DNA of 64,000 nucleotides, from the NCBI RefSeq assembly GCF_010882175.1, contig NZ_WKLH01000001.1:496001-560000 (forward strand), given 5' to 3'. The notes beneath the pieces were generated by a model. The model searched no databases. It worked only from the letters and a program-made list of their open reading frames with translations, and had not been told where the DNA came from. The DNA is from Mangrovibacterium lignilyticum (lineage in GTDB: Bacteria; Bacteroidota; Bacteroidia; Bacteroidales; Prolixibacteraceae). A program made the position numbers and the translations under genes. Within the stretch, counting starts at the first letter, position 1; the number at the start of each line of letters is the position of its first letter. Positions 27,449 through 50,799 of the stretch are shown one piece after another.

Positions 27449-28507
27449 ATGGAGCATTTTGTGGGGTTAGAGGCGAAATTAAGGAGATGGTACGAACAAA
27501 ACAAACGTCACCTCCCGTGGAGAGAAACATCTGATCCTTATATTATCTGGCTGTCCGAAATCATTCTTCAGCAAACCCGAATAGACCAAGGACTGGCTTA
27601 TTTTAAACGCTTTGTTGAAAATTACCCAACGGTTGAAAAATTGGCGGAAGCAACCGAAGATGAGGTATTGAAATTGTGGCAGGGACTAGGATATTACTCC
27701 CGTGCCCGAAATCTTCATTATACGGCCAAAACGATCAGTACAGTTTATAACGGCAATTTCCCTTCTGACTATAAAGAAATACTCTCCTTAAAAGGAGTGG
27801 GAGAATACACTGCAGCGGCTGTTGCCTCTATTTCTTTTAACCTACCACATGCCGTGGTCGATGGTAATGTTTACAGAGTCTTGTCCCGTTTATTTGGAAT
27901 TGACACCCCCATTGATAGCACCGAAGGGAGGAAACAATTTAATGAATTGGCCAACGAAATCCTGAACCAGAAGAATCCCGGAGATCACAACCAGGCAATG
28001 ATGGAATTTGGGGCGCTACAATGCACACCTAAGAAACCGAAGTGTGGCGATTGTATTTTCAATGATTGGTGCCTGGCACTAAAAGAAAACATCGTCGACC
28101 AATTGCCAGTCAAAAAAGGGAAAATTAAAATTAAGCATCGTTATTTTAATTATCTTTTGCTTTCGAATGGCACGAGTGCCTATATCCAAAAGCGTACAGC
28201 CAACGACATTTGGCAAAACCTTTATGAATTTCCGATGATAGAGACCTCTGAAAAAACAGAGATCGATCAAGTTCTGAACGGCTCTAGCTCCCTTTACAAT
28301 CCGCAAACGGATCTCGTCGAAGAAGTAAGCGGCTGGGGAAAACAAGTCCTCAGTCATCAACATATCCATTACCGGTTTATTCAAATCCAATTAAAGAATA
28401 AAAAAAGCCTCCTTCCCGGTTTGATCGAAGTGAATAAAAAAGATATTTTTAACTTTGCTGTTCCAAAACCAGTTGAGAAAAAACTAACACAGCTTAATTG
28501 GTTTTGA
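27449..28507 (+). CDS. mutY: A/G-specific adenine DNA glycosylase
   Basis: Removes adenine mispaired with 8-oxoguanine. The HhH-GPD core is clear: catalytic Glu in WLSEIILQQTRID, hairpin LKGVGEYTAAAVASI and catalytic Asp in AVVDGNVYRV. The [4Fe-4S] loop has the MutY spacing C-x6-C-x2-C-x5-C (CTPKKPKCGDCIFNDWC). The C-terminal NUDIX-like 8-oxoG recognition domain (about 230-345) includes NDIWQNLYEFP. At 352 aa it has the usual length. It opens the conserved mutY-ssb-gldE-gldD run. Confidence 0.95.
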   Translation: MEHFVGLEAKLRRWYEQNKRHLPWRETSDPYIIWLSEIILQQTRIDQGLAYFKRFVENYPTVEKLAEATEDEVLKLWQGLGYYSRARNLHYTAKTISTVYNGNFPSDYKEILSLKGVGEYTAAAVASISFNLPHAVVDGNVYRVLSRLFGIDTPIDSTEGRKQFNELANEILNQKNPGDHNQAMMEFGALQCTPKKPKCGDCIFNDWCLALKENIVDQLPVKKGKIKIKHRYFNYLLLSNGTSAYIQKRTANDIWQNLYEFPMIETSEKTEIDQVLNGSSSLYNPQTDLVEEVSGWGKQVLSHQHIHYRFIQIQLKNKKSLLPGLIEVNKKDIFNFAVPKPVEKKLTQLNWF

Positions 28508-28638
28508 GCCGTTCGTAGTGCGAAACAGGTAGGTTCACCACGAGAACAGCTACATTCATGAAATTCTGACACTTACACACAAACATTCACTGTCGAATTT
28601 TGTAAATTGGATGTTATTAATTTAAAAACCATTTAACT

Positions 28639-29073
28639 ATGTCAGTAAACAAAGTTATTCTAATTGGCAATGTAGGACAGGATCCTGAAGTAAGACACTT
28701 GGATAAAGACGTGACTGTAGCTAACTTTTCGTTGGCAACCTCTGAAAGTTACACCGCTAAAAACGGAGAAAAAGTAACAACAACCGAATGGCACAACATC
28801 GTTGTTTGGAGGGGGCTGGCAAAAGTCGTTGAGCAGTACGTTAACAAAGGAGATAAATTGTATATTGAGGGCCGAATCCGGACTCGTTCGTGGGATGATA
28901 AAGAAGGCAACAAACGCTATACAACTGAGATTTATGCTGATATCCTGGAAATGTTAACTCCCAGGGGACAATCATCTGGAGGACATCAAGCCTCGGAACC
29001 TCAAAATCAAAAGGCAGAATCGGTCAATGAACCGGATTTCAGTTCCTCCGACGAGGACGATCTGCCATTTTAG
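28639..29073 (+). CDS. ssb: Single-stranded DNA-binding protein
   Basis: A 144-aa OB-fold protein that coats ssDNA in replication and repair. The start MSVNKVILIGNVGQDPEVR and the WHNIVVWRGLAKVVEQYV and YIEGRIRTRSW segments are classic SSB. A flexible Gln/Ser-rich linker leads to the acidic tip DEDDLPF, which binds partner proteins. It lies 131 bases after mutY and 19 bases before gldE. Confidence 0.96.
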   Translation: MSVNKVILIGNVGQDPEVRHLDKDVTVANFSLATSESYTAKNGEKVTTTEWHNIVVWRGLAKVVEQYVNKGDKLYIEGRIRTRSWDDKEGNKRYTTEIYADILEMLTPRGQSSGGHQASEPQNQKAESVNEPDFSSSDEDDLPF

Positions 29074-29092
29074 TAACCAAAATTTTGACTAA

Positions 29093-30412
29093 TTGGAAAC
29101 GGACCCTTTACCCCATTTGCTTTCTCTGCCGTGGGAAGTGTATTTTCTCCCCTTGACAGGTTCAGCCATCATTGGCCTTGTTTTAATCGCATTGTTGCTA
29201 ATCTCGTCTGCTCTCATTTCAGGATCTGAAGTCGCTTATTTTTCGATCAGCCCTAAAGATCGGCAAAAACTGAGCAACCAAAAGGAGAAAAACAGCCATT
29301 TTATATTGCAAAATCTGGAGAATCCCGAAAAATTATTGGCCACCATTTTGGTAGCCAATAATTTTGTCAATGTTGGAATCGTCATTCTTTCGACCTACAC
29401 AACCAAAATGCTGGTCGACTTTTCGAAAGCACCAACTATTGGATTCATTTTTCAGATTATCGTTATCACCTTTTTCTTATTGCTGTTTGGAGAAGTCATT
29501 CCCAAAGTATATGCGACCCGTCATTCGCTGCGTGTTGCCCGAATTATGGCTATCCCGTTGAATGTTATGGAACGCATATTCAGGCCCATCAATGCAATCC
29601 TGATTTACTCAACTTCATTTGTAAACAAAAGAATACAGACACATTCCCAAAACATTTCGGTTGATGAACTTTCGCAAGCTTTGGAGTTGACGGACGATCA
29701 TGAAATTTCGGAAGACAAGGATATTTTGGAAGGTATTGTCAAATTCGGCAATAAAAATGCGGTGGAGATTATGCGCCCCCGGGTCGATGTAGAGGCAATC
29801 GACATCAAAGAGTCGCTGGACAAGCTGATCAACCTGATTAACGATACAGGCTACTCACGAATTCCGGTTTATTCAGAAACCTTCGACAATATCCGGGGAA
29901 TTCTGTATATCAAAGACCTGCTCCCCTACATCAACAACCGCGAGAACTTTCACTGGCAATCGATCATTCGACCTCCTTTTTATGTTCCTGAGACTAAAAA
30001 AATCGATGATCTGCTGGAAGAATTTCAAAAGAACAAGGTTCATATGGCCCTCGTCGTTGATGAATATGGTGGCATCTCGGGCATTGTAACATTGGAAGAT
30101 ATTCTGGAAGAAATTGTCGGTGAAATTGCTGATGAGTTTGATGAAGACGAAAATTATTTCACCAAAATTGCTGATAACAAATTCCTGTTTGACGGCAAAA
30201 TATTATTGAACGACTTTTATAAAATCACTGGCTCAAACGATCATGTATTCGACGATTACAAAGGTGATGCTGATACACTGGCTGGTTTAATCCTTGAATT
30301 GAAGGGGGAAATTCCCGCATTAAATGAAAAGATATCGTGCCAGAATTTCATTTTTTCAATCGACGGCGTCGATCACCGCAGGATTAAGAAAATTAAAGTA
30401 GAGATTAATTAA
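29093..30412 (+). CDS. gldE: Gliding motility-associated protein GldE (CNNM/CBS-domain transporter-like)
   Basis: A 439-aa inner-membrane protein. The N-terminal DUF21/CNNM domain has about four helices (SAIIGLVLIALLLISSALISGSEVAYFSI). A CBS pair spans about 215-335 (IMRPRVDVEAI, VDEYGGISGIVTLEDILEE), and a CorC/HlyC C-terminal domain begins at about 355. No ATG fits the conserved N-terminus, so the start is the TTG 19 bases after ssb. GldE partners GldD in the gliding/type IX secretion machinery of Flavobacteria, but non-gliding Bacteroidota also carry it. Close spacing to gldD (17 bases) supports one operon. Confidence 0.9.
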   Translation: METDPLPHLLSLPWEVYFLPLTGSAIIGLVLIALLLISSALISGSEVAYFSISPKDRQKLSNQKEKNSHFILQNLENPEKLLATILVANNFVNVGIVILSTYTTKMLVDFSKAPTIGFIFQIIVITFFLLLFGEVIPKVYATRHSLRVARIMAIPLNVMERIFRPINAILIYSTSFVNKRIQTHSQNISVDELSQALELTDDHEISEDKDILEGIVKFGNKNAVEIMRPRVDVEAIDIKESLDKLINLINDTGYSRIPVYSETFDNIRGILYIKDLLPYINNRENFHWQSIIRPPFYVPETKKIDDLLEEFQKNKVHMALVVDEYGGISGIVTLEDILEEIVGEIADEFDEDENYFTKIADNKFLFDGKILLNDFYKITGSNDHVFDDYKGDADTLAGLILELKGEIPALNEKISCQNFIFSIDGVDHRRIKKIKVEIN

Positions 30413-30429
30413 GCTTTGGGGAGATTTAA

Positions 30430-30996
30430 ATGAAGAAACTGGTATTCATTCTGATTGCATTTATATTTTTCACGGCCTGCAACGAAAGTTATATTCCTAA
30501 ACCACGGGGCTATTTTCGAATCAATTTCCCCGAGAAATCATTTCACCTGTCCGACCAAAAGTTGCCGTACTCGTTCGAGATAGCCGACTATTCGAAAATC
30601 GCCTACTCAAAAGACGCCAGGTCAAACACCGAATGGGTAAATGTTGTAACGCCGAAGAATAAAGCAGATCTTCATTTAACCTACCTGACTCTTTTCGGTG
30701 ATCTGAATCACCACATCGAGGAGTCGCGCAAACTGGCTTACGATCATACCATCAAAGCCGATGCAATCAACGAGAAATTGTTCCTCAACCCTGCTGAAAA
30801 TGTCTACGGAACGATTTATTACATCGAAGGAAATGCAGCGTCGCCGCTCCAGTTTTATTTAACCGACAGCACCACACACTTTTTAAGAGGCGCCTTTTAC
30901 ATCCGTGAAATTCCAAACATCGATAGTATTCAGCCTGTAATCGACTTTCTGGAACCTGACGTTATTCATTTAATTGAAACATTCAGATGGAACTAA
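30430..30996 (+). CDS. gldD: Gliding motility lipoprotein GldD
   Basis: A 188-aa lipoprotein with lipobox (AFIFFTACNES, Cys about residue 17). The family-typical SYIPKPRGYFRINFPEK follows directly, then SNTEWVNVVTPKNKADLHLTY and the central NVYGTIYYIEGNAASPLQFYLTDST. GldD is required for gliding in Flavobacterium and is conserved far beyond gliding species. It is preceded by gldE and followed by a phosphopantetheinyl transferase, which is the standard order in the phylum. Confidence 0.93.
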   Translation: MKKLVFILIAFIFFTACNESYIPKPRGYFRINFPEKSFHLSDQKLPYSFEIADYSKIAYSKDARSNTEWVNVVTPKNKADLHLTYLTLFGDLNHHIEESRKLAYDHTIKADAINEKLFLNPAENVYGTIYYIEGNAASPLQFYLTDSTTHFLRGAFYIREIPNIDSIQPVIDFLEPDVIHLIETFRWN

Positions 30997-31050
30997 ATCC
31001 GTCATACTATCGTTATTCATCCAAATCAGAACTATCAAACTCTTCAGCAA

Positions 31051-31668
31051 ATGCCTTTTATTGAACATTGCAACATCGACAATGGACTGCTGCTCCTTTG
31101 GGAAATGACTGAAACGCCGGAGGAACTTCAGGAGTTTGAACAAGAATTCGCAGACAATGCTGATTATTTGAAAATATCACACCCCAAAAGGCAACGAGAG
31201 TGGTTAACCGTTCAGCAACTTCTCCGCAATGCAAACTGTTCTCCACAACTCATTACACGCGATTCGAACGGGAAACCTGGCATCAACCATCAATTATATC
31301 AGTCGGTATCCATTAGTCATTCAGCTAAACTAGCCGGAATATTTCTACACCCCGGAACCATGGTCGGACTGGATATTGAAGATGCCGAACGCGACTTTGC
31401 CAGAGTAGAAAAGAAATACCTCAGTCGTGAAGAATCGGCATTAGCCAAGCGTATTCCCAATGGTGCCGGCTTGTTTTGGTGTATCAAGGAAGCAGCATAT
31501 AAAGCTGCTGGCATTCCCGGCTTAGTTTTCACAGAACAGATTGAAATTAGTGAGACAGAACCGGGAACACTAACAACGACTGTTTACGGAAATTCGACCT
31601 TGGAATTCAAAATTTATCAGCGAATGATCGCCGGACAACTCATTGTTTGTTTGACGCTTCAACAGTGA
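31051..31668 (+). CDS. 4'-phosphopantetheinyl transferase (Sfp/AcpT superfamily)
   Basis: Transfers phosphopantetheine from CoA to carrier proteins. The 205-aa chain has the two superfamily motifs: VGLDIEDAERD, with the Mg-binding Asp and Glu, and FWCIKEAAYKAAGIPG, with the KEAxxK signature. An SISHSAKLAG-like segment marks the CoA-binding region. The Sfp-like length suggests a pseudo-dimer. It lies 54 bases after gldD. The target carrier protein is not in the window. Confidence 0.88.
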   Translation: MPFIEHCNIDNGLLLLWEMTETPEELQEFEQEFADNADYLKISHPKRQREWLTVQQLLRNANCSPQLITRDSNGKPGINHQLYQSVSISHSAKLAGIFLHPGTMVGLDIEDAERDFARVEKKYLSREESALAKRIPNGAGLFWCIKEAAYKAAGIPGLVFTEQIEISETEPGTLTTTVYGNSTLEFKIYQRMIAGQLIVCLTLQQ

Positions 31669-34700: not shown

Positions 34701-35936
34701 ATGAAACTATACCGGGAAGCATATCAGGAATTGATTGAAAAGCTCAAGCAAAAGACGAGCAGAATTGAACTGGATGAGTTGGAAATCCAACGGCTAAAGT
34801 TTGAATCAGAATCGCATGATTTGCTGCCCGGCAAGGGTGAATACAACTGCAAAGCCCATGGCGAAAGCTTTGACGGAGCACAAAACTTCTTTCACGACAT
34901 TGGAACAATCGACAATCAAATCCAGATTAAAGATATTGACATTGAAGAAAACAAGCAGTTCGAGTATCTGCTGTTCGTCCCCAAAGGAAAAGCACCATCA
35001 AATCAGGCTATTTTTCTGTTTCATGGATTTAACGAGAAAAACTGGGACAAATACCTGACCTGGGCCCAGTTTTTGGCTGAAAGTACCGGCTCCCCGATTA
35101 TTCTCTTCCCAATGGCTTTTCACATGAACCGAACGCTTTCTATTTGGAGCGACAAACGCAAAATGTTTAAGATGAGCACAAAAAGGCAACAAATGTTTCC
35201 CAATATCGTGAACTCGTCATTGACCAATGTTGCCATCAGCATGCGCTTGCACAGTCGCCCGCAACGTTTTATCTGGTCAGGCCTACAAAGTTACTACGAT
35301 GTCATTCGATTTATCGATCTTGTTCGCGCCGGCGACCATCCCGTATTGAAAGCCGATACTACTTTTCACGTGGTCGCCTATTCCATTGGCTGCTTGCTCT
35401 CTCAGATTTTAAAACTCACAAATCCCAAAGGATATTTCAGTGACTCAAAACTGTGTTTATTTTGCGGCGGCCCTGTTTTCAATCGCTTATCGCCGGTTTC
35501 AAAATTCATACTCGATAGCGAAGCCAACGTGGCTTTATATTCGTACTTGATAGAGCATTTTGAAAAGCATACGCAAAAAGACGGACACCTGGACCATTAC
35601 ATAAAAGGTCCTCACCAAGAGGGGCATATTTTCCATGCCATGCTCAATTATAATGAAAACAGGGAGTTTAGGGAAGAGCTGCTCCGCAAAGTAAGTGACG
35701 ATTTAATGGCTATCGGGCTAAAGCAAGATGAGGTAATCCCGTCCTATGAGATTATCAACACACTGCAAGGTGCTGCACGAGATATTCCCATTCCGGTAGA
35801 CATTCACGATTTCCCTTTTCCTTATAACCACATATCGCCATTTCCGACAAGCGAAAACAACAAAGAAATTATTGACCGCGAATTCCGGAATATCTTTCTC
35901 AAAATTGCTTCTTTCTTAAAAAATGTGAAGGAATAA
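34701..35936 (+). CDS. DUF6051 family protein, alpha/beta hydrolase-like
   Basis: A 411-aa cytoplasmic protein matching the Bacteroidota DUF6051 family, as I recognise it from IFLFHGFNEKNWDKYLTWA, IILFPMAFHMNR and LHSRPQRFIWSGLQSY. An alpha/beta-hydrolase core is suggested by HGFNE (oxyanion hole), VVAYSIGCLLSQ (a G-less elbow, AYSIG) and a C-terminal HDFPFPYNHISPF that could supply the His. There is no signal peptide. The N-terminal 90 residues are a charged helical extension. The substrate is unknown, and the gene stands alone. Confidence 0.75.
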   Translation: MKLYREAYQELIEKLKQKTSRIELDELEIQRLKFESESHDLLPGKGEYNCKAHGESFDGAQNFFHDIGTIDNQIQIKDIDIEENKQFEYLLFVPKGKAPSNQAIFLFHGFNEKNWDKYLTWAQFLAESTGSPIILFPMAFHMNRTLSIWSDKRKMFKMSTKRQQMFPNIVNSSLTNVAISMRLHSRPQRFIWSGLQSYYDVIRFIDLVRAGDHPVLKADTTFHVVAYSIGCLLSQILKLTNPKGYFSDSKLCLFCGGPVFNRLSPVSKFILDSEANVALYSYLIEHFEKHTQKDGHLDHYIKGPHQEGHIFHAMLNYNENREFREELLRKVSDDLMAIGLKQDEVIPSYEIINTLQGAARDIPIPVDIHDFPFPYNHISPFPTSENNKEIIDREFRNIFLKIASFLKNVKE

Positions 35937-36540: not shown

Positions 36541-39500
36541 ATGAAAAGATTGACATCGCTATTCCTATGTCTGTTTCTATTGTTTGAGTTTGCCCTCGCT
36601 CAAACCAAGGAGATATCCGGAACAGTCACTTCTGCTGAAGATGGCTTATCTATTCCGGGTGCATCAGTTTCCCTGAAAGGAACAACCCTGGGCACAATCA
36701 CCGATATGGAAGGAAATTACCACTTGAAAATCCCTGCGACAGGGGAAGCTCTGGTATTTTCGTTCGTCGGTATGAAAACTACTGAATTTGCCATTAATGG
36801 GCAAAGCGTGGTTAATGCAGTTTTAGAGTCCGACAACGTAGCTGTTGACGAAGTTGTGGTAACAGCACTCGGTATCTCTCGTGAGAAAAAGGCACTGGGC
36901 TACGCTGTCCAGGAAGTATCGGGAGATGAACTGACTAAAGCCAAAGACCAAAACATTGTAAACTCGCTTTCCGGTAAAGTAGCCGGGGTGCAAGTTACAA
37001 GCGCTTCGGGTGCAATTGGTAGTTCGTCACGGATTACAATTCGTGGTAACAGTTCCTTCTCAAGCAACGAACCACTTTTCGTGGTTGACGGTGTACCAAT
37101 TCGCAACTACGCTTCAAGTGTGAGCCAATGGGGTGGCGTTGACTACGGTAACGGTGCTTCTGATATTGCACCTGAAAACATTGAGTCTATCACCATTTTG
37201 AAAGGTGCTAACGCCGCCGCACTTTACGGTATGGATGCTGCCAACGGGGTTATTTTGATTACCACGAAGAAAGCTAAAGGAGCCGGCGCAATGCAAGTAC
37301 AATTGAATTCCAGCATTACTTTCAGCGATGCTTACGTAATCCCGAACTACCAAAACAAGTATGGTCAGGGTTACTCTGGTTCTGAATACATGTACAACAA
37401 CTCTGGTACCAGCCAAAGCTACCAGGACTGGTCAGCTGATAACTCATTTACCTACGTTGATGGTAATGGTGGTGGTGTTTACGACTACATGGATGAAAGT
37501 TGGGGACCTCGTTTGGATATCGGTCTGAAATTCGCCCAATTTGACAGCCCGGTTGTAGATGGTGTTTACCAGCCTACCGATTGGGTTTCTCAACCTGACA
37601 ACGTAAAAGATTTCTTCGAAACGGGAGTGACTTATGACAACAGCGTGGCTGTTCAAACGTCAAACGAAACAAGTTCAACTCGTTTGTTCTTGTCCCGTCA
37701 GGATATCACCGGAACTATTCCAAACACCGATTTGGATAAAACGACAGCCAGTCTCAGCGGATCTATCACTCCAAACGACAAATTCACGGCACAGGGATCT
37801 GTAACGTACACCCAATCTAAATCAGACAACTTGCCAGGACAAGGGTATTCAACCAATAACGTGATGCAGTCGCTTGGTGGTTGGTTCGGTCGCCAGGTGA
37901 ATATGCAATCGCTGAAAGAAAACTGGAATACTTACAATCAGGACGGTAATCCATATAACTGGAACAGTAACTACCACAATAACCCTTACTGGACAGTTTA
38001 CAACAATACCAACTCGATGCTGAAAAATCACCTTTTCGGTAACATGTCAGCAGACTACAAATTAACAGATTGGTTAGATGTATTAGGTCGTGTAGGTATC
38101 GACACCTACACCAACCGTCGTAAATCAGTGAATGCTGACGGATCAATTGGTATTCAGTCTGGTGGTTCATTTGGTCAATCTGAAAACTATTCACACGAGT
38201 TAAATGCAGATTTGATTTTGAGCATCGACAAAGATTTGAGTGAAAGCATCCACTTGGCCGGTACATTCGGTGCAAACTATCGCGACTATCACTATCGCTA
38301 TTCATACATTGGTGCTTCATCACTTACAGTACCCAACTTGTATACAATTAGCAACATTAACGGTACACCTTCCGTGTCGCAAAATGAGAGCAACATGCGT
38401 TCGAACTCTGCATTCGGTTCGCTGTCATTCTCATACAACAACTACTTATTCCTGGACGTAACCGGACGTAACGACTGGAGTTCAACCCTGCCACAGGAAG
38501 CATGGTCATTCTTCTATCCTTCGGTAACAGCTAGTTGGTTAGTATCAGAATCGTTGGACATCAAATCAAATTTCTTGTCTTTCTTTAAGTTACGTGCCAG
38601 CTGGGCTCAAGTGGGTAACGCCACCGATCCTTACCAATTGGGTATGACTTACAATTCAATTACTTCGTACAACGGTACAACACCTTTCTACCTGCCAACA
38701 ACCCGTTCAACAACCGACTTGGTACCTGAAAAGGTTAATTCAACGGAGATCGGTGCTGAAATGAAGTTCTGGAAAAACAGAATTGGTTTGAACCTGACTT
38801 ATTACGACAAGATCACGAAAAACCAGATTATGTCGATCGATGTAAGTGATGCATCTGGTTACGACAAGGTAATGATCAACGCCGGTGAAATTGAAAACAA
38901 AGGGGTTGAAATTGAATTGAGCGCAGACATCCTGAAATCGAAAGATGGCTTGAACTGGACATCGACCCTGAACTGGGCAAAAAATAAAAACAGCGTAAAC
39001 GAACTGTACGAAGATATTGACAGCTATTCTATTTCAAGTTCATGGAGTAGTGTAACGATCGAAGCGATCCCGGGAGAAACTTTCGGAGTTATCAAAGGTT
39101 ATGACTTTGAACGCGACGCTAACGGCAACCTAGTTGTTGGGTCAGACGGTTTACCAAATGCCGCTGCAAGTACTTCAGAAATTGGCAACATCATGCCCGA
39201 CTGGACTGGTGGTTGGAATAACAGCTTCCGTTGGAAAAACCTTTCAGCAAGCTTCCTGTTGGATATGCGCTGGGGCGGCGATGTATTTTCTGTAACCGAT
39301 TGGTTCGGTGGAATGGCTGGTTTGACTGAAGAAACAGCTCAAATGGCTTCTCGTGCCGGTGTTGAAGGATCCAATATCCGTGAAGTTGGTTTGGTTGTCG
39401 GAAAAGACGTCTTGAAAGACGAATCTGTAGTAACTTCTGATGGTGGCGAAAACGACGTTGTTGTTTCAGCTCAGGACTACTACGAAAGCTACTGGGGACT

Positions 39501-39780
39501 GGAAAAACAAGGTATGATTGACGGTAGTTATTTGAAACTGCGTGAATTCACTCTGGGATATGACATCCCTTCTTCTTTGTTGAATAAAACAGGATTCCTG
39601 AAATCAGCGAACATTTCATTTGTTGGTCGTAACCTGGCCATCCTTTGGACACACAAAAGTAACGATGTTGGTATTGACCCAGAAACAGCTTTCGGTTCAA
39701 GCCTGACAGGTATGGGTATTGAGCAATATCAGATTCCGGCAACCCGCAACTTAGGTTTCCGCCTTAACGTGACTTTCTAA
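36541..39780 (+). CDS. SusC/RagA-family TonB-linked outer-membrane protein
   Basis: A 1079-aa importer that forms a lidded channel with its SusD partner. A signal peptide (ending FALAQT) is followed by a CarboxypepD_reg-like domain at about 23-100 (GTVTSAEDGLSIPGASVSLKG). The SusC linker VDEVVVTALGISREKKALGYAVQ and the plug with ITIRGNSSFSSNEPLFVVDG and TILKGANAAALYG follow. The long barrel ends NLGFRLNVTF. There are no carbohydrate enzymes beside the pair, so the ligand could be a peptide or an oligosaccharide. It lies 33 bases before susD. Confidence 0.95.
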   Translation: MKRLTSLFLCLFLLFEFALAQTKEISGTVTSAEDGLSIPGASVSLKGTTLGTITDMEGNYHLKIPATGEALVFSFVGMKTTEFAINGQSVVNAVLESDNVAVDEVVVTALGISREKKALGYAVQEVSGDELTKAKDQNIVNSLSGKVAGVQVTSASGAIGSSSRITIRGNSSFSSNEPLFVVDGVPIRNYASSVSQWGGVDYGNGASDIAPENIESITILKGANAAALYGMDAANGVILITTKKAKGAGAMQVQLNSSITFSDAYVIPNYQNKYGQGYSGSEYMYNNSGTSQSYQDWSADNSFTYVDGNGGGVYDYMDESWGPRLDIGLKFAQFDSPVVDGVYQPTDWVSQPDNVKDFFETGVTYDNSVAVQTSNETSSTRLFLSRQDITGTIPNTDLDKTTASLSGSITPNDKFTAQGSVTYTQSKSDNLPGQGYSTNNVMQSLGGWFGRQVNMQSLKENWNTYNQDGNPYNWNSNYHNNPYWTVYNNTNSMLKNHLFGNMSADYKLTDWLDVLGRVGIDTYTNRRKSVNADGSIGIQSGGSFGQSENYSHELNADLILSIDKDLSESIHLAGTFGANYRDYHYRYSYIGASSLTVPNLYTISNINGTPSVSQNESNMRSNSAFGSLSFSYNNYLFLDVTGRNDWSSTLPQEAWSFFYPSVTASWLVSESLDIKSNFLSFFKLRASWAQVGNATDPYQLGMTYNSITSYNGTTPFYLPTTRSTTDLVPEKVNSTEIGAEMKFWKNRIGLNLTYYDKITKNQIMSIDVSDASGYDKVMINAGEIENKGVEIELSADILKSKDGLNWTSTLNWAKNKNSVNELYEDIDSYSISSSWSSVTIEAIPGETFGVIKGYDFERDANGNLVVGSDGLPNAAASTSEIGNIMPDWTGGWNNSFRWKNLSASFLLDMRWGGDVFSVTDWFGGMAGLTEETAQMASRAGVEGSNIREVGLVVGKDVLKDESVVTSDGGENDVVVSAQDYYESYWGLEKQGMIDGSYLKLREFTLGYDIPSSLLNKTGFLKSANISFVGRNLAILWTHKSNDVGIDPETAFGSSLTGMGIEQYQIPATRNLGFRLNVTF

Positions 39781-39813
39781 TCCAACTTAATTCATTTTAA
39801 AAACTGAAAGAAC

Positions 39814-41277
39814 ATGTCTAGATTTCTAAAAACTAAATTATATATGGCTCTGGCGCTGGTCTTATCCTTGGCGTCATGTAGCGGCGATTTCGAAGAAATC
39901 AACACCAACCCCAATAGTCCAACGGAGGTACCATCGACTAATATTTTAGCCTATACCATCGAAAACTTCACCGCCAACTCATTTAGCACGAGTGCTGTGT
40001 GTGGCGGAGCACTGGGATATGCCAACCAAGTTGGTAAAATCCAGTATCCGGAAGAATCGATTTACGAATTCCGTGAAGGTACTTTCAGCAGTTACTTTAC
40101 AACAATCTATCGCAACCAGCAAAATTTAGCGGTTGTCATGGAGCAAGCCGAAGCTGAAGGTGCTACCAACATGACTGCTGTTGCTAAAACCTGGAGTGCA
40201 TACATCTGGTTAATCGCAACCGACAGCTGGAGAGACATTCCTTTTACTGAAGCTTTGGGTGCTACAGAAGGTGTACTTTCACCTTCATATGATGAGCAGG
40301 AAGATATTTACCCTGCAGTGATGGATCTTTTGGCAGAAGCGAACGACTTGTTCAACGAAGGAGCTTCTGACGATATTGGCAGTGGCGATTTACTTTTTGG
40401 GGGTGATACCGAATTGTGGCAAAAATTCGCAAACAGCTTGCGTCTGCGTATGGCTATCCGTCTTTCTAACGTAGAGCCTGCGACTGCTAAATCGGTAGTC
40501 GAAGAAATCATTGCGTCTCCGTCAACTTATCCGATTATCAGCTCAAACGATGATAATGCGTATTTCCACTGGTTGGGAGCAAATCCTTACTACGAGCCAT
40601 TCTACTCCAATAAGGATATCTCTGCCCGTGACGACCATGGTATGGCTGATGTAATCATCGATCAATTGAAAGCGTTCAACGACCCTCGTCTGCCAATTTA
40701 TGCGCACCCTGCCGCTGCCGATGGCGAATACCGCGGTGTAGTTGTTGGTGATGACCAGGATAACTTTACAATGAGTGAAATCTCTCGTATCGGAGCACGC
40801 TTCCGCGACGAAGCTGATGGTTTCTCTCCTTTCATGAACTATGCTGAAGTTTGCTTTATTCTTGCAGAAGCATCTGCTAACGGATGGGCAACAGGAACAA
40901 CTGCCGCCGAAGCATATGAAGCAGGAATCACTGCATCGATGGAAGAAAATGAAGTTGCAGCTGACGATATTGCCACTTACCTGACACAATCAGATATTGT
41001 GTACAGCGATGTAGATCAAATCTATCTGCAGAAATGGATCTCTTTATTCAAAAACGGACATGAAGCTTGGGCTGAAAACCGCCGTACAGATGTGCCGTTG
41101 TTAAGCCCGGCACCTGATGGATCTTACTCTGGACACAACCGTCCACCATTCCGTCAACCTTATCCAAATACCGAGTATAGCCTAAACACGGCAAATATTC
41201 AAACTTTCTGGAGCAAGGTAGATGACCGCCTGTGGGGCCAACAAATGTATTGGGATACCAGAACAGGCGTTAACTAA
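39814..41277 (+). CDS. SusD/RagB-family outer-membrane lipoprotein (SusD-like_2 type)
   Basis: A 487-aa lipoprotein (lipobox LSLASCSGDFEEINTNPNSP, Cys about residue 22) forming the lid over its SusC channel. The helical TPR-like core carries YIWLIATDSWRDIPFTEAL and AVMDLLAEANDLFN, which belong to the SusD-like_2 branch. C-terminal ISLFKNGHEAWAENRRTDVP is typical of the family. No xylanase, peptidase or sulfatase is adjacent, so this is an orphan pair with respect to degradation enzymes. Confidence 0.93.
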   Translation: MSRFLKTKLYMALALVLSLASCSGDFEEINTNPNSPTEVPSTNILAYTIENFTANSFSTSAVCGGALGYANQVGKIQYPEESIYEFREGTFSSYFTTIYRNQQNLAVVMEQAEAEGATNMTAVAKTWSAYIWLIATDSWRDIPFTEALGATEGVLSPSYDEQEDIYPAVMDLLAEANDLFNEGASDDIGSGDLLFGGDTELWQKFANSLRLRMAIRLSNVEPATAKSVVEEIIASPSTYPIISSNDDNAYFHWLGANPYYEPFYSNKDISARDDHGMADVIIDQLKAFNDPRLPIYAHPAAADGEYRGVVVGDDQDNFTMSEISRIGARFRDEADGFSPFMNYAEVCFILAEASANGWATGTTAAEAYEAGITASMEENEVAADDIATYLTQSDIVYSDVDQIYLQKWISLFKNGHEAWAENRRTDVPLLSPAPDGSYSGHNRPPFRQPYPNTEYSLNTANIQTFWSKVDDRLWGQQMYWDTRTGVN

Positions 41278-41372: not shown

Positions 41373-43010
41373 CTACCAAATAATTTCCTGAATAATTCTT
41401 CCTTCACAATGTGGCGGAATATCAAATCCAAGAATATCGAATATGGTCGGAACCATATCCACTGCATCAACCTTTTCGCGGTTACGCCCAGCCTTGATAG
41501 CATTTCCCATCCAAATCATCGGAATTCGGCTGTTGTCAGTATAAACGACTTTCCGATATTTAAACTGCGGTTGCCATCCGTCTTCCAACATAAACAGAAT
41601 ATCACCAGACCGTTTGGCGTTGAATGATTTTGAAATGGTCGTCAGTAAACTGGTAGCATAGTCACCTTGCTCAAAGCCAGTAGCAGGAAGAGCAATTTTA
41701 ACTCCTTCAAACTGATTGATAAATGATGCTGCTTTGGTCAAGAATTCATTCAACGGTATTTTTTGCTTTTCAATTAGAGCCCTGTTCATATAAATCTGCT
41801 GATCCATCACGAACTCTACCCAGTCGCCTTGGCCGTAAGTAATATTCAAATACGATTTCAGTAGCGCCACCACACTTTCAGGAGAAACGTGGCCTGCCGG
41901 CATATTATACTTTTGTTGCAGAAAATCGGCCGAATAAGACGATGAACAGGAAGAAGTCAGCACAACCAATGTATTGGCAAGCCCAACCTCGTTGTCTACG
42001 TAGTCCAATAACCCGGCAATATCCTGATCAAGTCTTAAATAAACATCTTCCATTTCGACAGACGAGGGTCCAAAAATACTGTTCGCGTAGTCCATCGACG
42101 AAAAATTGATCGTCAACAAATCCGGATTCTCATCACGCCCCAAACGTTCATGGTCAATCAGGTTAACTGCAAAATCCTTTATCAGTCGGTTTCCATATGG
42201 CGTTGTTTTTAGAATTCGGTAGCTTCCTTCATTCGATATTAACTTTTTCAAATCGTATGGGAATGTGCGCCATTTGTCGAAATAACCTTTCTCAAAAGGG
42301 CTGTCATCCTCCACGGAAGCACTATAGCTGCTGAGCGGGATTAAGGTTGACCAATCCCTGGTTGCATAGGACTCGGCCAAATGCTGGTTATTAAAATCGA
42401 ATGCCCACCCCGGAAACTGATCGATATAATAGGAACTTGAAATCATATTTCCAGTCTGGTTATCCAGCCAGTATGCACCATCGGCAGCATGACCGGCAGA
42501 CAAAACAGCACTGTAGTCATTCAAACTAACGGCAAAAACTTTCGATTGACCATTTGTACTCAACTTTAGTCCGTCGCCCAAAGTAGGACTCAGTAAATGC
42601 CTCGCTGAAAGCTGGCCTTCTTTGGAGTCGCTTCCAACTGTTATATAGTTATCGTCAGCCAAGGCGTCCACTTCTTTTTCCTTCAGGCGATCGAGCCATG
42701 TCTCGTTTATAATGCCGTGACGATCGGGATAAGACCCGGTAAACAAGGTTGGAACCCCGGTAATACACTTCTGAATATGCAGATTCATACTGGCATTTGA
42801 GCAAACCGCTCCCCTGCTTACTAGCCTCTGGAAACCATTATTTTGAAATTTATCGGCATAGCGAGCCAAATAATCGCTGCGCATTTGCTCCACATTAATA
42901 ACCAGTACCAATCGCGGTTTTGAAGTTTGCTTTTCCTGTCCGTACAGACTTGTCTGCGCGAACAAAAATGAAAGAACAAAAAGAATAAATAGGCTGTTTT
43001 TGAATACCAT
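41373..43010 (-). CDS. PafA-like alkaline phosphatase superfamily protein lacking the active site (predicted pseudoenzyme)
   Basis: A 545-aa exported protein (signal peptide ending SLYGQ) that can be followed along the PafA phosphatase fold: INVEQMRSDYLARY, LFTGSYPDRHGI, SSMDYANSIFGPSSVEMED, YLRLDQDIAGLL and IPMIWMG. By my alignment from memory of Elizabethkingia PafA, the nucleophile Thr79 is Cys82 here and metal ligand Asp38 is Glu41. Asp305 is kept as Asp307, but His309 becomes Ser311. The Asp352-His353 pair becomes Ser354-Cys355, and the His486 region is shortened. The fold is intact and full length without stops, so it is probably a conserved non-catalytic binding or scaffold protein. 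It converges on susD and may be unrelated to it. Confidence 0.75.
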   Translation of the reverse strand: MVFKNSLFILFVLSFLFAQTSLYGQEKQTSKPRLVLVINVEQMRSDYLARYADKFQNNGFQRLVSRGAVCSNASMNLHIQKCITGVPTLFTGSYPDRHGIINETWLDRLKEKEVDALADDNYITVGSDSKEGQLSARHLLSPTLGDGLKLSTNGQSKVFAVSLNDYSAVLSAGHAADGAYWLDNQTGNMISSSYYIDQFPGWAFDFNNQHLAESYATRDWSTLIPLSSYSASVEDDSPFEKGYFDKWRTFPYDLKKLISNEGSYRILKTTPYGNRLIKDFAVNLIDHERLGRDENPDLLTINFSSMDYANSIFGPSSVEMEDVYLRLDQDIAGLLDYVDNEVGLANTLVVLTSSCSSSYSADFLQQKYNMPAGHVSPESVVALLKSYLNITYGQGDWVEFVMDQQIYMNRALIEKQKIPLNEFLTKAASFINQFEGVKIALPATGFEQGDYATSLLTTISKSFNAKRSGDILFMLEDGWQPQFKYRKVVYTDNSRIPMIWMGNAIKAGRNREKVDAVDMVPTIFDILGFDIPPHCEGRIIQEIIW

Positions 43011-49686: not shown

Positions 49687-50799
49687 TCACTGCCTCTTTT
49701 CCCATTCCGGATAAGCTTTCAGCACTGCTTCGGGCCAGAAACCGTACCATTCGTAGCCTACCCGGCGATCGAATGAAATGTCCTTCAAATCGTATACAAT
49801 CGTTCCGTCTCGCAATGAAAGGAAGGGTTCTCCTTTTTCGAGATTGTAATAACGGGCCCAGACCGGGCGGGCCTCGGAATCGGGCACAAATTCACGATCA
49901 AAGTCAATGGTGGTTTCGTGGTAGGGGCGCTCTTCAATCGGGAAGTTGCCGTAGCGGTAGCCAGTGATTTTCGCAGCCTCAAGCCATGCCACGCTCGACT
50001 CTATAGCAGCCACCACCGCTGAATCGGGCTGTTCAATTCGCATCAGAAACAGGATGATATCGCAACTCTCGCGCGCTGTCACCGAAGGATGTTCGTAAGC
50101 TCTCCCCTGCACCGGCGCGTAGCTATCAAAGTCGTGCTGCTGACACCAGGCTGTTTTCACACCGTTAATCTCCACCTGGCATTTCAGGATCACCTGCAGC
50201 CCGCGCTCGTAAGCGGCCAATAACCTGGTTCGCATGTCGGGTTGCAGCCAGTCGTAACTAGGGTCATTTGTTTTCACGTCCAGCAGTAGGTCCATAATGC
50301 CGGTCATCACATCGTCGTTGAAGGTAATAACGTCGGCATCCCAGCCGCGCCAGCCTCCTGTTGGGTATTCAGTATTCAAAATATACTGAAAGCCTTTTTC
50401 TGCTGCCGCGCGGTATTTATCGTCACCACTTTGCCCGTACACCGCTGATAAGTACTCAATCTGCGGAAAAATATTCCGGTTGTCAAATGTGCTTTGGCGA
50501 TAATGTTCGCTCAGGTCGTTGATCACCGAGTCGCGCGGAACCAGGGTCAACCAATCGATATTTTTCGGCCAACCACCATCTTCATTTTGGTAGGCCAGCA
50601 GGTTGTCGGCAATGCCGATTATATCGGTAGTATCTATCCGGTCGGTACTGCGAATACGGCTGTAGAGGTTCCAGTGGTGAATGCCGTCTTCGAATTTCGC
50701 CAGGTCGATGTAACTGTAATTTTTGCTCTCGGGTTGATGTGTGCAAGCGGCTATAGCGGCCAAACTTAAGAATAGGATGATTCGTTTTATGGGTTTCAT
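49687..50799 (-). CDS. Pectate lyase, PL10 family, lipoprotein
   Basis: A 370-aa lyase that cleaves polygalacturonate by beta-elimination. A lipoprotein signal (FLSLAAIAACTHQ) precedes a single alpha-toroid-like domain. Recognisable PL10 blocks are ENEDGGWPKNIDW-like LAYQNEDGGWPKN, FDNRNIFPQIEYL, YPTGGWRGWD, AWCQQHDFDSYAPVQGRAYEHP and PVWARYYNLEKGEPFLSLRDG. The last block carries the candidate catalytic Arg. No other pectin enzyme or SusCD pair is nearby, so it is an isolated CAZyme. It ends 60 bases after a 42-bp repeat array. Confidence 0.88.
   Translation of the reverse strand: MKPIKRIILFLSLAAIAACTHQPESKNYSYIDLAKFEDGIHHWNLYSRIRSTDRIDTTDIIGIADNLLAYQNEDGGWPKNIDWLTLVPRDSVINDLSEHYRQSTFDNRNIFPQIEYLSAVYGQSGDDKYRAAAEKGFQYILNTEYPTGGWRGWDADVITFNDDVMTGIMDLLLDVKTNDPSYDWLQPDMRTRLLAAYERGLQVILKCQVEINGVKTAWCQQHDFDSYAPVQGRAYEHPSVTARESCDIILFLMRIEQPDSAVVAAIESSVAWLEAAKITGYRYGNFPIEERPYHETTIDFDREFVPDSEARPVWARYYNLEKGEPFLSLRDGTIVYDLKDISFDRRVGYEWYGFWPEAVLKAYPEWEKRQ

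Follow-up and report, generated by a model that had tools for sequence, protein, structure and literature searches.

The 64,000-nucleotide stretch of the Mangrovibacterium lignilyticum genome analyzed here (contig NZ_WKLH01000001.1, positions 496,001 to 560,000; hereinafter the window) contains a gene (41373-43010, minus strand) for a protein of 545 amino acids that is probably a pseudoenzyme derived from PafA, a periplasmic phosphatase of which it is the Bacteroidales orthologue, and a non-catalytic binder or scaffold acting through residues 366-445. The components of this reading differ in strength. That the protein is a pseudoenzyme is very likely, judging from its sequence and those of its relatives; action in the periplasm by binding through residues 366-445 is an even proposition; and a role in the envelope or in connection with lipoproteins is suggested tentatively.

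The gene is a single open frame with neither an internal stop nor a frameshift, and no second match to its product was found elsewhere in the same genome. The protein matches PafA of Elizabethkingia meningoseptica (5tj3) over its full length (phmmer E-value 2e-89, query residues 29-544) and resembles both this enzyme and PafA of Flavobacterium johnsoniae (Fjoh_0023), predicted to be periplasmic (PMC8115612), in the whole fold and in length. For an AlphaFold2 model of residues 26-545, built with 47 relatives (mean predicted local distance difference test score, pLDDT, 94; predicted template modelling score, pTM, 0.93), the best solved structure is again 5tj3, with a template modelling (TM) score of 0.93 and a root-mean-square deviation of 2.2. 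The original prediction of a full-length PafA family protein with the fold intact is thus borne out. The Sphingomonas alkaline phosphatase SPAP/PhoK (3q3q), which has an intact two-zinc site, shares the fold (TM score 0.82) at 22% identity. The protein belongs to the type I phosphodiesterase superfamily (PF01663, 97.1 bits, cut-off 23) and scores 484.8 bits with the NCBIfam PafA profile NF042991, below the curated cut-off of 650.

The active site of PafA is almost completely replaced in the window protein, which retains one of the ten catalytic and metal-site residues, namely D305 (Asp307 in its own numbering; Table 1). The residues scored were the nucleophile T79, the phosphate-binding N100, K162 and R164, and D38, D305, H309, D352, H353 and H486, which we take to be the metal ligands of PafA. 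The first four were placed directly, being the positions at which the sequences of 5tj3 and its mutant 5too disagree. The assumed numbering of the ligands fits the data because the columns are invariant in intact enzymes: of nine sites compared in 35 intact rows, all but N100 (present in 34) are invariant, and position 486 is His in every intact row of the alignment inspected. The alignment recovers each of the changes proposed originally, that is, Cys at the nucleophile, Ser-Cys in place of an Asp-His pair, Ser in place of another His, the shortened loop of the last His, and Asp307 with a conservative Glu41 as the remnants of the metal site; the losses of N100, K162 and R164 go beyond these. 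His or Asp ligands supplied from elsewhere in the chain, which would have contradicted the prediction, were looked for and not found, and none of the eight His (residues 78, 98, 138, 174, 210, 287, 374 and 534) is located at a lost ligand position. The protein therefore lacks the combination of a Thr/Ser nucleophile with Asp/His zinc ligands that defines PafA. The old pocket might still bind a phosphate ester or another ligand without turnover, so that the protein would be a sensor or a solute-binding protein; ligand binding is often retained by pseudoenzymes, and the fold is retained here. However, the phosphate-binding residues are all replaced, and the R164 position lies in the 97th percentile of variability, so this alternative appears improbable compared with a pseudoenzyme that binds through residues 366-445.

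The same class of loss is seen in related genomes, a comparison that the original prediction had proposed. Among 61 genomes (the own genome and 60 relatives), 50 encode a homologue. In the own family, Prolixibacteraceae, a full-length homologue is present in 35 of the 37 genomes and is degenerate in all 35, the other 34 being 38-80% identical to the window protein. Canonical copies that keep nine or ten of the ten residues are additionally found in one genome of the family (G034) and in two of other families (G038 and G042), and only these three of the 61 genomes exceed the NF042991 cut-off. In another genome (G017, C54:53903-55565), a second, canonical-type PafA match is split across two overlapping open frames. 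In a scan of titled sequences, the best 80 of 586 loci include intact copies from flavobacteria, cytophagas, chitinophagas, sphingobacteria and some unplaced Bacteroidota, and degenerate copies titled Prolixibacteraceae, Draconibacterium, Sunxiuqinia, Labilibaculum, "Bacteroidales" and unplaced Bacteroidota. One intact PafA (L157) is titled Methylococcaceae, perhaps through a binning error. A class-wide draw of 149 genomes yielded a match in 94, and 60 of the 96 listed places were read: of the five copies from the own order, four are degenerate and one is intact, and the 55 copies from other orders of the class are without exception intact, 54 having all ten residues and one, cut short of H486, having nine. 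In an order-wide set, 141 of 247 genomes match L092, an intact copy from within the degenerate clade (see below); the 30 best loci were read, a choice that favours copies close to L092, as were 40 wider regions, of which 16 surround genes from these 30 loci.

Altogether, 117 of the 281 aligned rows (some genes are represented more than once) keep nine or ten of the ten residues, 164 keep zero to five, and none keeps six to eight; all degenerate copies of known order belong to Bacteroidales as delineated in GTDB. Chance does not account for the loss, as relatives have undergone changes of the same kind and intermediate rows are missing among the 281. In less degraded lineages, e.g., L097-L099, which keep D305, H309, H353 and H486 together with Ser at the nucleophile position, metal or weak activity may be retained. 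These copies would also fit the proposal that the less degraded lineages have a weak or substrate-shifted phosphatase and that only some are inactive, but the window protein keeps only D305 and none of the 164 degenerate rows keeps more than five of the ten residues, so that this explanation seems quite improbable, and the pseudoenzyme interpretation is preferred.

The degenerate gene appears to be maintained by purifying selection. The ratio of nonsynonymous to synonymous substitution rates (dN/dS) over the whole gene is 0.033-0.071 in the four of ten degenerate orthologue pairs with a computable dS: 0.038 for L009-L010 (dS 3.1, near saturation), 0.071 for L015-L016, 0.033 for L019-L020 and 0.054 for L026-L028. 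Synonymous saturation affects the other six pairs, including all four that involve the window gene; in these four, the proportion of nonsynonymous differences (pN) is 0.14-0.20. The original suggestion that the gene is kept by selection is accordingly supported through relatives rather than through the window gene itself. A fold under purifying selection, as measured on relatives, combined with the disappearance of the catalytic residues is what would be expected of a pseudoenzyme. The nine active-site columns are no more conserved than others in the family (mean entropy 1.86 vs 1.57), as would be the case also for a decaying relic on the way to a pseudogene; but the family hits contain no internal stop, the measurable dN/dS values are low and a new constraint is detectable on residues 366-445, which makes a relic highly improbable.

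Conservation differs between the two groups of proteins: the degenerate clade conserves residues 366-445, and the intact enzymes conserve the active site. The comparison involved 39 rows of the family, 25 other degenerate rows, five degenerate rows linked to SecA (see below) and 35 intact rows, 28 of the 132 rows, namely near-copies and some intact ones, having been removed before the first tree and the identity and entropy comparisons. Mean pairwise identity over residues 366-445 is 0.50 in the family, 0.49 in the other degenerate rows, 0.47 in the SecA-linked ones and 0.26 in the intact enzymes. In the surroundings of nine active-site positions (up to five residues away), the respective values are 0.54, 0.46, 0.45 and 0.69, and in the rest of the protein, 0.49, 0.46, 0.41 and 0.47; that the rest of the protein has diverged equally argues against sampling as the cause. 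Entropy within the block is shifted by -0.69 bit on average, compared with +0.18 over all columns, and none of 100000 random draws of columns attained this value, a test that disregards the dependence between neighbouring columns; the lowest value for a stretch of columns located entirely outside 366-445 is +0.14. The gained residues include G242, L383, N389, L412, F430 and F434. In the SecA-linked rows, L383, L384, L412 and F430 are present in five of five, F434 in three of five and N389 in none of the five.

The second constraint seems to predate the loss of catalysis. Five intact copies (L092 and L223-L226) combine all ten active-site residues with the new signature, and eight intact copies outside the clade (5tj3, L068, L069, L071, L101, L165, L263 and L271) lack the full signature, although isolated signature residues are present. 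A tree of 142 rows was built with the ten active-site columns removed, additionally leaving out 55 intact rows of other orders, gene repeats and all but 19 of the signature-less intact rows. In this tree, 118 degenerate and the five signature-bearing intact rows separate from the 19 intact rows with support 97, and the five nest among the degenerate rows. One of these intact genes (L253 in genome G348, the same gene as L223) is located tail-to-tail with genes for geranylgeranylglyceryl/heptaprenylglyceryl phosphate synthase (GGGPS), a phosphopantetheinyl transferase (PPTase), gldD, gldE and ssb, as are degenerate copies; no GldD was found downstream of the other four, three of which have at least 5 kb of downstream sequence and L092 4.5 kb. 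Because signature-bearing intact copies nest within the clade and one of them occupies the gld locus, both the locus and the signature look older than the catalytic loss, and it is from this nesting and the shared locus that we infer the order of events. Catalysis was likely lost repeatedly: the unconstrained tree implies six losses as resolved, or three once its weak forks are collapsed, and each of the ten sites retains the PafA residue in at least four of the 118 degenerate rows. Since none of the ten is altered throughout the 118, at least two separate initial lesions would be required, barring reversion at one of the sites or an initial lesion elsewhere.

In the window, GldE (TIGR03520, 29093-30412) and GldD (TIGR03512, 30430-30996), both above the profile cut-offs, are encoded 10 kb from the gene, and the mutY-ssb-gldE-gldD-PPTase cluster to which they belong is the neighbour at the orthologous locus in relatives. 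In several genomes (L061, L064, L066, L253, L275 and others) the GGGPS gene separates the pafA-like gene from PPTase-gldD-gldE; in the window, its place is taken by zwf, pgl, a gene for a 411-aa protein and the SusCD pair. In 8 of the 90 degenerate loci with at least 5 kb of downstream sequence, the gene is adjoined by an Lnb-like gene and SecA, and the Lnb and pafA-like genes abut or overlap in several of these. Loci L073-L077, L163, L164, L166 and L167 come from several further families of the order and have the degenerate homologue between the Lnb-like gene and secA. The Lnb label derives from one gene (L077), which matches PF13387 and PF25221 above the cut-offs and NF051878 below it (354 of 550 bits); Lnb is named as a lipoprotein N-acyltransferase in PMC12345273. 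A GldE-like gene located 4-5 kb from three SecA-linked copies was considered as an indication of the same locus and rejected, being a distant relative with 23-27% identity. In Flavobacterium psychrophilum, PafA is reported among the surface-shaved proteins only in a gldD mutant (0 vs 8 spectra); GldD-dependent secretion of PafA was discarded as an explanation given that this result looks more like leakage than dependence.

Combining these observations, we infer a periplasmic place, a binding role and a class of partner for the protein. An active PafA encoded near gldE-gldD would have acquired a new constraint on residues 366-445 in an ancestor; the nucleophile, the phosphate-binding residues and the zinc ligands would later have degenerated in the majority of lineages read, with the fold and residues 366-445 staying; and the present-day protein would be a periplasmic, non-catalytic binding or scaffold protein, perhaps involved in envelope or lipoprotein biogenesis. 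The "non-catalytic binder" of the original prediction is thus plausible. In a more detailed and rather speculative version, PafA would have been bifunctional, binding through residues 366-445 while still active near gldE-gldD, catalysis would have been discarded independently on several occasions, and the product would be a widespread periplasmic scaffold of envelope or lipoprotein biogenesis, linked to gldDE or flanked by Lnb-like genes and secA depending on the lineage.

Several points weigh against this scenario. The block 366-445 was picked after the profile had been viewed, so that the test of its entropy shift is post hoc. A single loss of catalysis is not rejected by the approximately unbiased (AU) test (p 0.29; a single degenerate clade costs 21 log units). 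The envelope role is based on neighbours only, as would be any part of the protein in gliding or type IX secretion, and GldD is encoded near just 25 of the 90 degenerate loci with at least 5 kb downstream, compared with one of four intact loci with the signature and none of 92 without it (BLAST with the window's own GldD; the loci are not all from different genomes, and the window is excluded). GldD is present in 46 of the 50 genomes with a homologue and in 8 of the 11 without (Fisher p 0.10, uncorrected for kinship), and Lnb, which would count in favour of the scenario, in 37 of 50 and 4 of 11, respectively (Fisher p 0.03, uncorrected for kinship or other pairs); with kinship uncorrected, these co-occurrence figures carry no weight in the reading. 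Finally, Glu or Asp at position 41, N164 and D307 remain conserved at the old site in the own family (39, 38 and 37 of the 39 rows), which a pure scaffold would not need.

The conservation of these three residues would be accounted for by a retooled site in which Glu41, Asn164 and Asp307, joined in the own genus by Cys82 and Cys355, hold one metal, making the protein a new hydrolase or a metal-dependent binder; D305, H309, H353 and H486 are also kept in some other lineages. However, within the family the nucleophile position is in the 95th percentile of variability and the H309, D352 and H353 positions are in the 71st-80th, D305 is present in just 12 of 30 other degenerate rows, and the two cysteines occur together in only five genomes of one homologue alignment (the own genome, G001, G002, G003 and G025). 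A retooled metal site is therefore unlikely. Among the family rows, C355 is found in 11 of 39 and C82 in 4 of 39, Cys355 occurring also without Cys82. The pair, singled out originally as a potential disulfide or new site, is thus lineage-specific, and a conserved disulfide or Cys2 metal site as a general feature was rejected. Binding through residues 366-445 by a non-catalytic protein is still the preferred explanation.

The SusCD pair that is tail-to-tail with the gene in the window, and that the original prediction pointed out there, does not appear to be a partner. The pair was not found at this place in G003 and G001, two of the three congeners (the locus of the third is too short to tell), or in G025, and the partnership was rejected; the mutY-ssb-gldE-gldD-PPTase cluster is an older neighbour of the gene. 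The 411-aa protein (34701-35936), which has no NCBIfam match at 1e-5, adjoins the gene in G003 (79% identity), where SusCD is absent, so the pair is either an insertion in the window or was lost in G003. A pectate lyase (TIGR02474, above the cut-off) is encoded farther away in the window (49687-50799, minus strand).

Table 1. Features of the window, with window positions and the basis of each assignment
Feature	Position	Strand	Basis
mutY-like, ssb-like, gldE, gldD and phosphopantetheinyl-transferase-like genes	27449..31668	+	gldD, gldE and PPTase by profile; others by eye
SusC (TIGR04056) and SusD-like pair, tail-to-tail with the gene	36541..41277	+	profile; absent in congeners (see text)
PafA-fold protein with degenerate active site, 545 aa	41373..43010	-	profile, phmmer, model
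Residues 480-495, shortened loop without His486	41526..41573	-	alignment, codon check
Residues 366-445, newly constrained in the degenerate clade; modelled as helices and strands	41676..41915	-	alignment, model
Ser354-Cys355 for Asp352-His353	41946..41951	-	alignment, codon check
Asp307 (= Asp305, kept) and Ser311 for His309	42078..42092	-	alignment, codon check
Asn164 and Tyr166 for Lys162 and Arg164	42513..42521	-	alignment, codon check
Glu103 for Asn100	42702..42704	-	alignment, codon check
Cys82 for nucleophile Thr79	42765..42767	-	alignment, codon check
Glu41 for PafA metal ligand Asp38	42888..42890	-	alignment, codon check
Signal-peptide-like N-terminus, residues 1-25, no cysteine within	42936..43010	-	judged by eye, inference

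YejM/PbgA of enteric bacteria, a member of the alkaline phosphatase superfamily, offers a partial parallel: it likewise has a periplasmic hydrolase-fold domain tied to outer-membrane properties, but it does not belong to the PafA family. In a phylogeny of PafA, 423 of 468 isolate sequences kept the key residues and key-site point mutants were removed (PMC8812569), and PafA has been reported in 78.7% across the phylum, with constitutive phosphatase activity taken as a common trait (PMC8115612). The accessible parts of these two papers do not treat degenerate PafA copies as a group, and no description of PafA pseudophosphatases was found in the open-licence literature, most subscription papers being outside the search.

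PafA-like genes are counted as phosphatases, although most of the Bacteroidales copies read are very probably not PafA phosphatases, so that gene counts based on similarity may overstate phosphorus release there. The intact copies, the intact copies with the signature, and the partly and fully degenerate copies, several of them at one locus, form a natural series for the transition from an enzyme to a non-enzyme, and a second function of the degenerate PafA is open to direct test.
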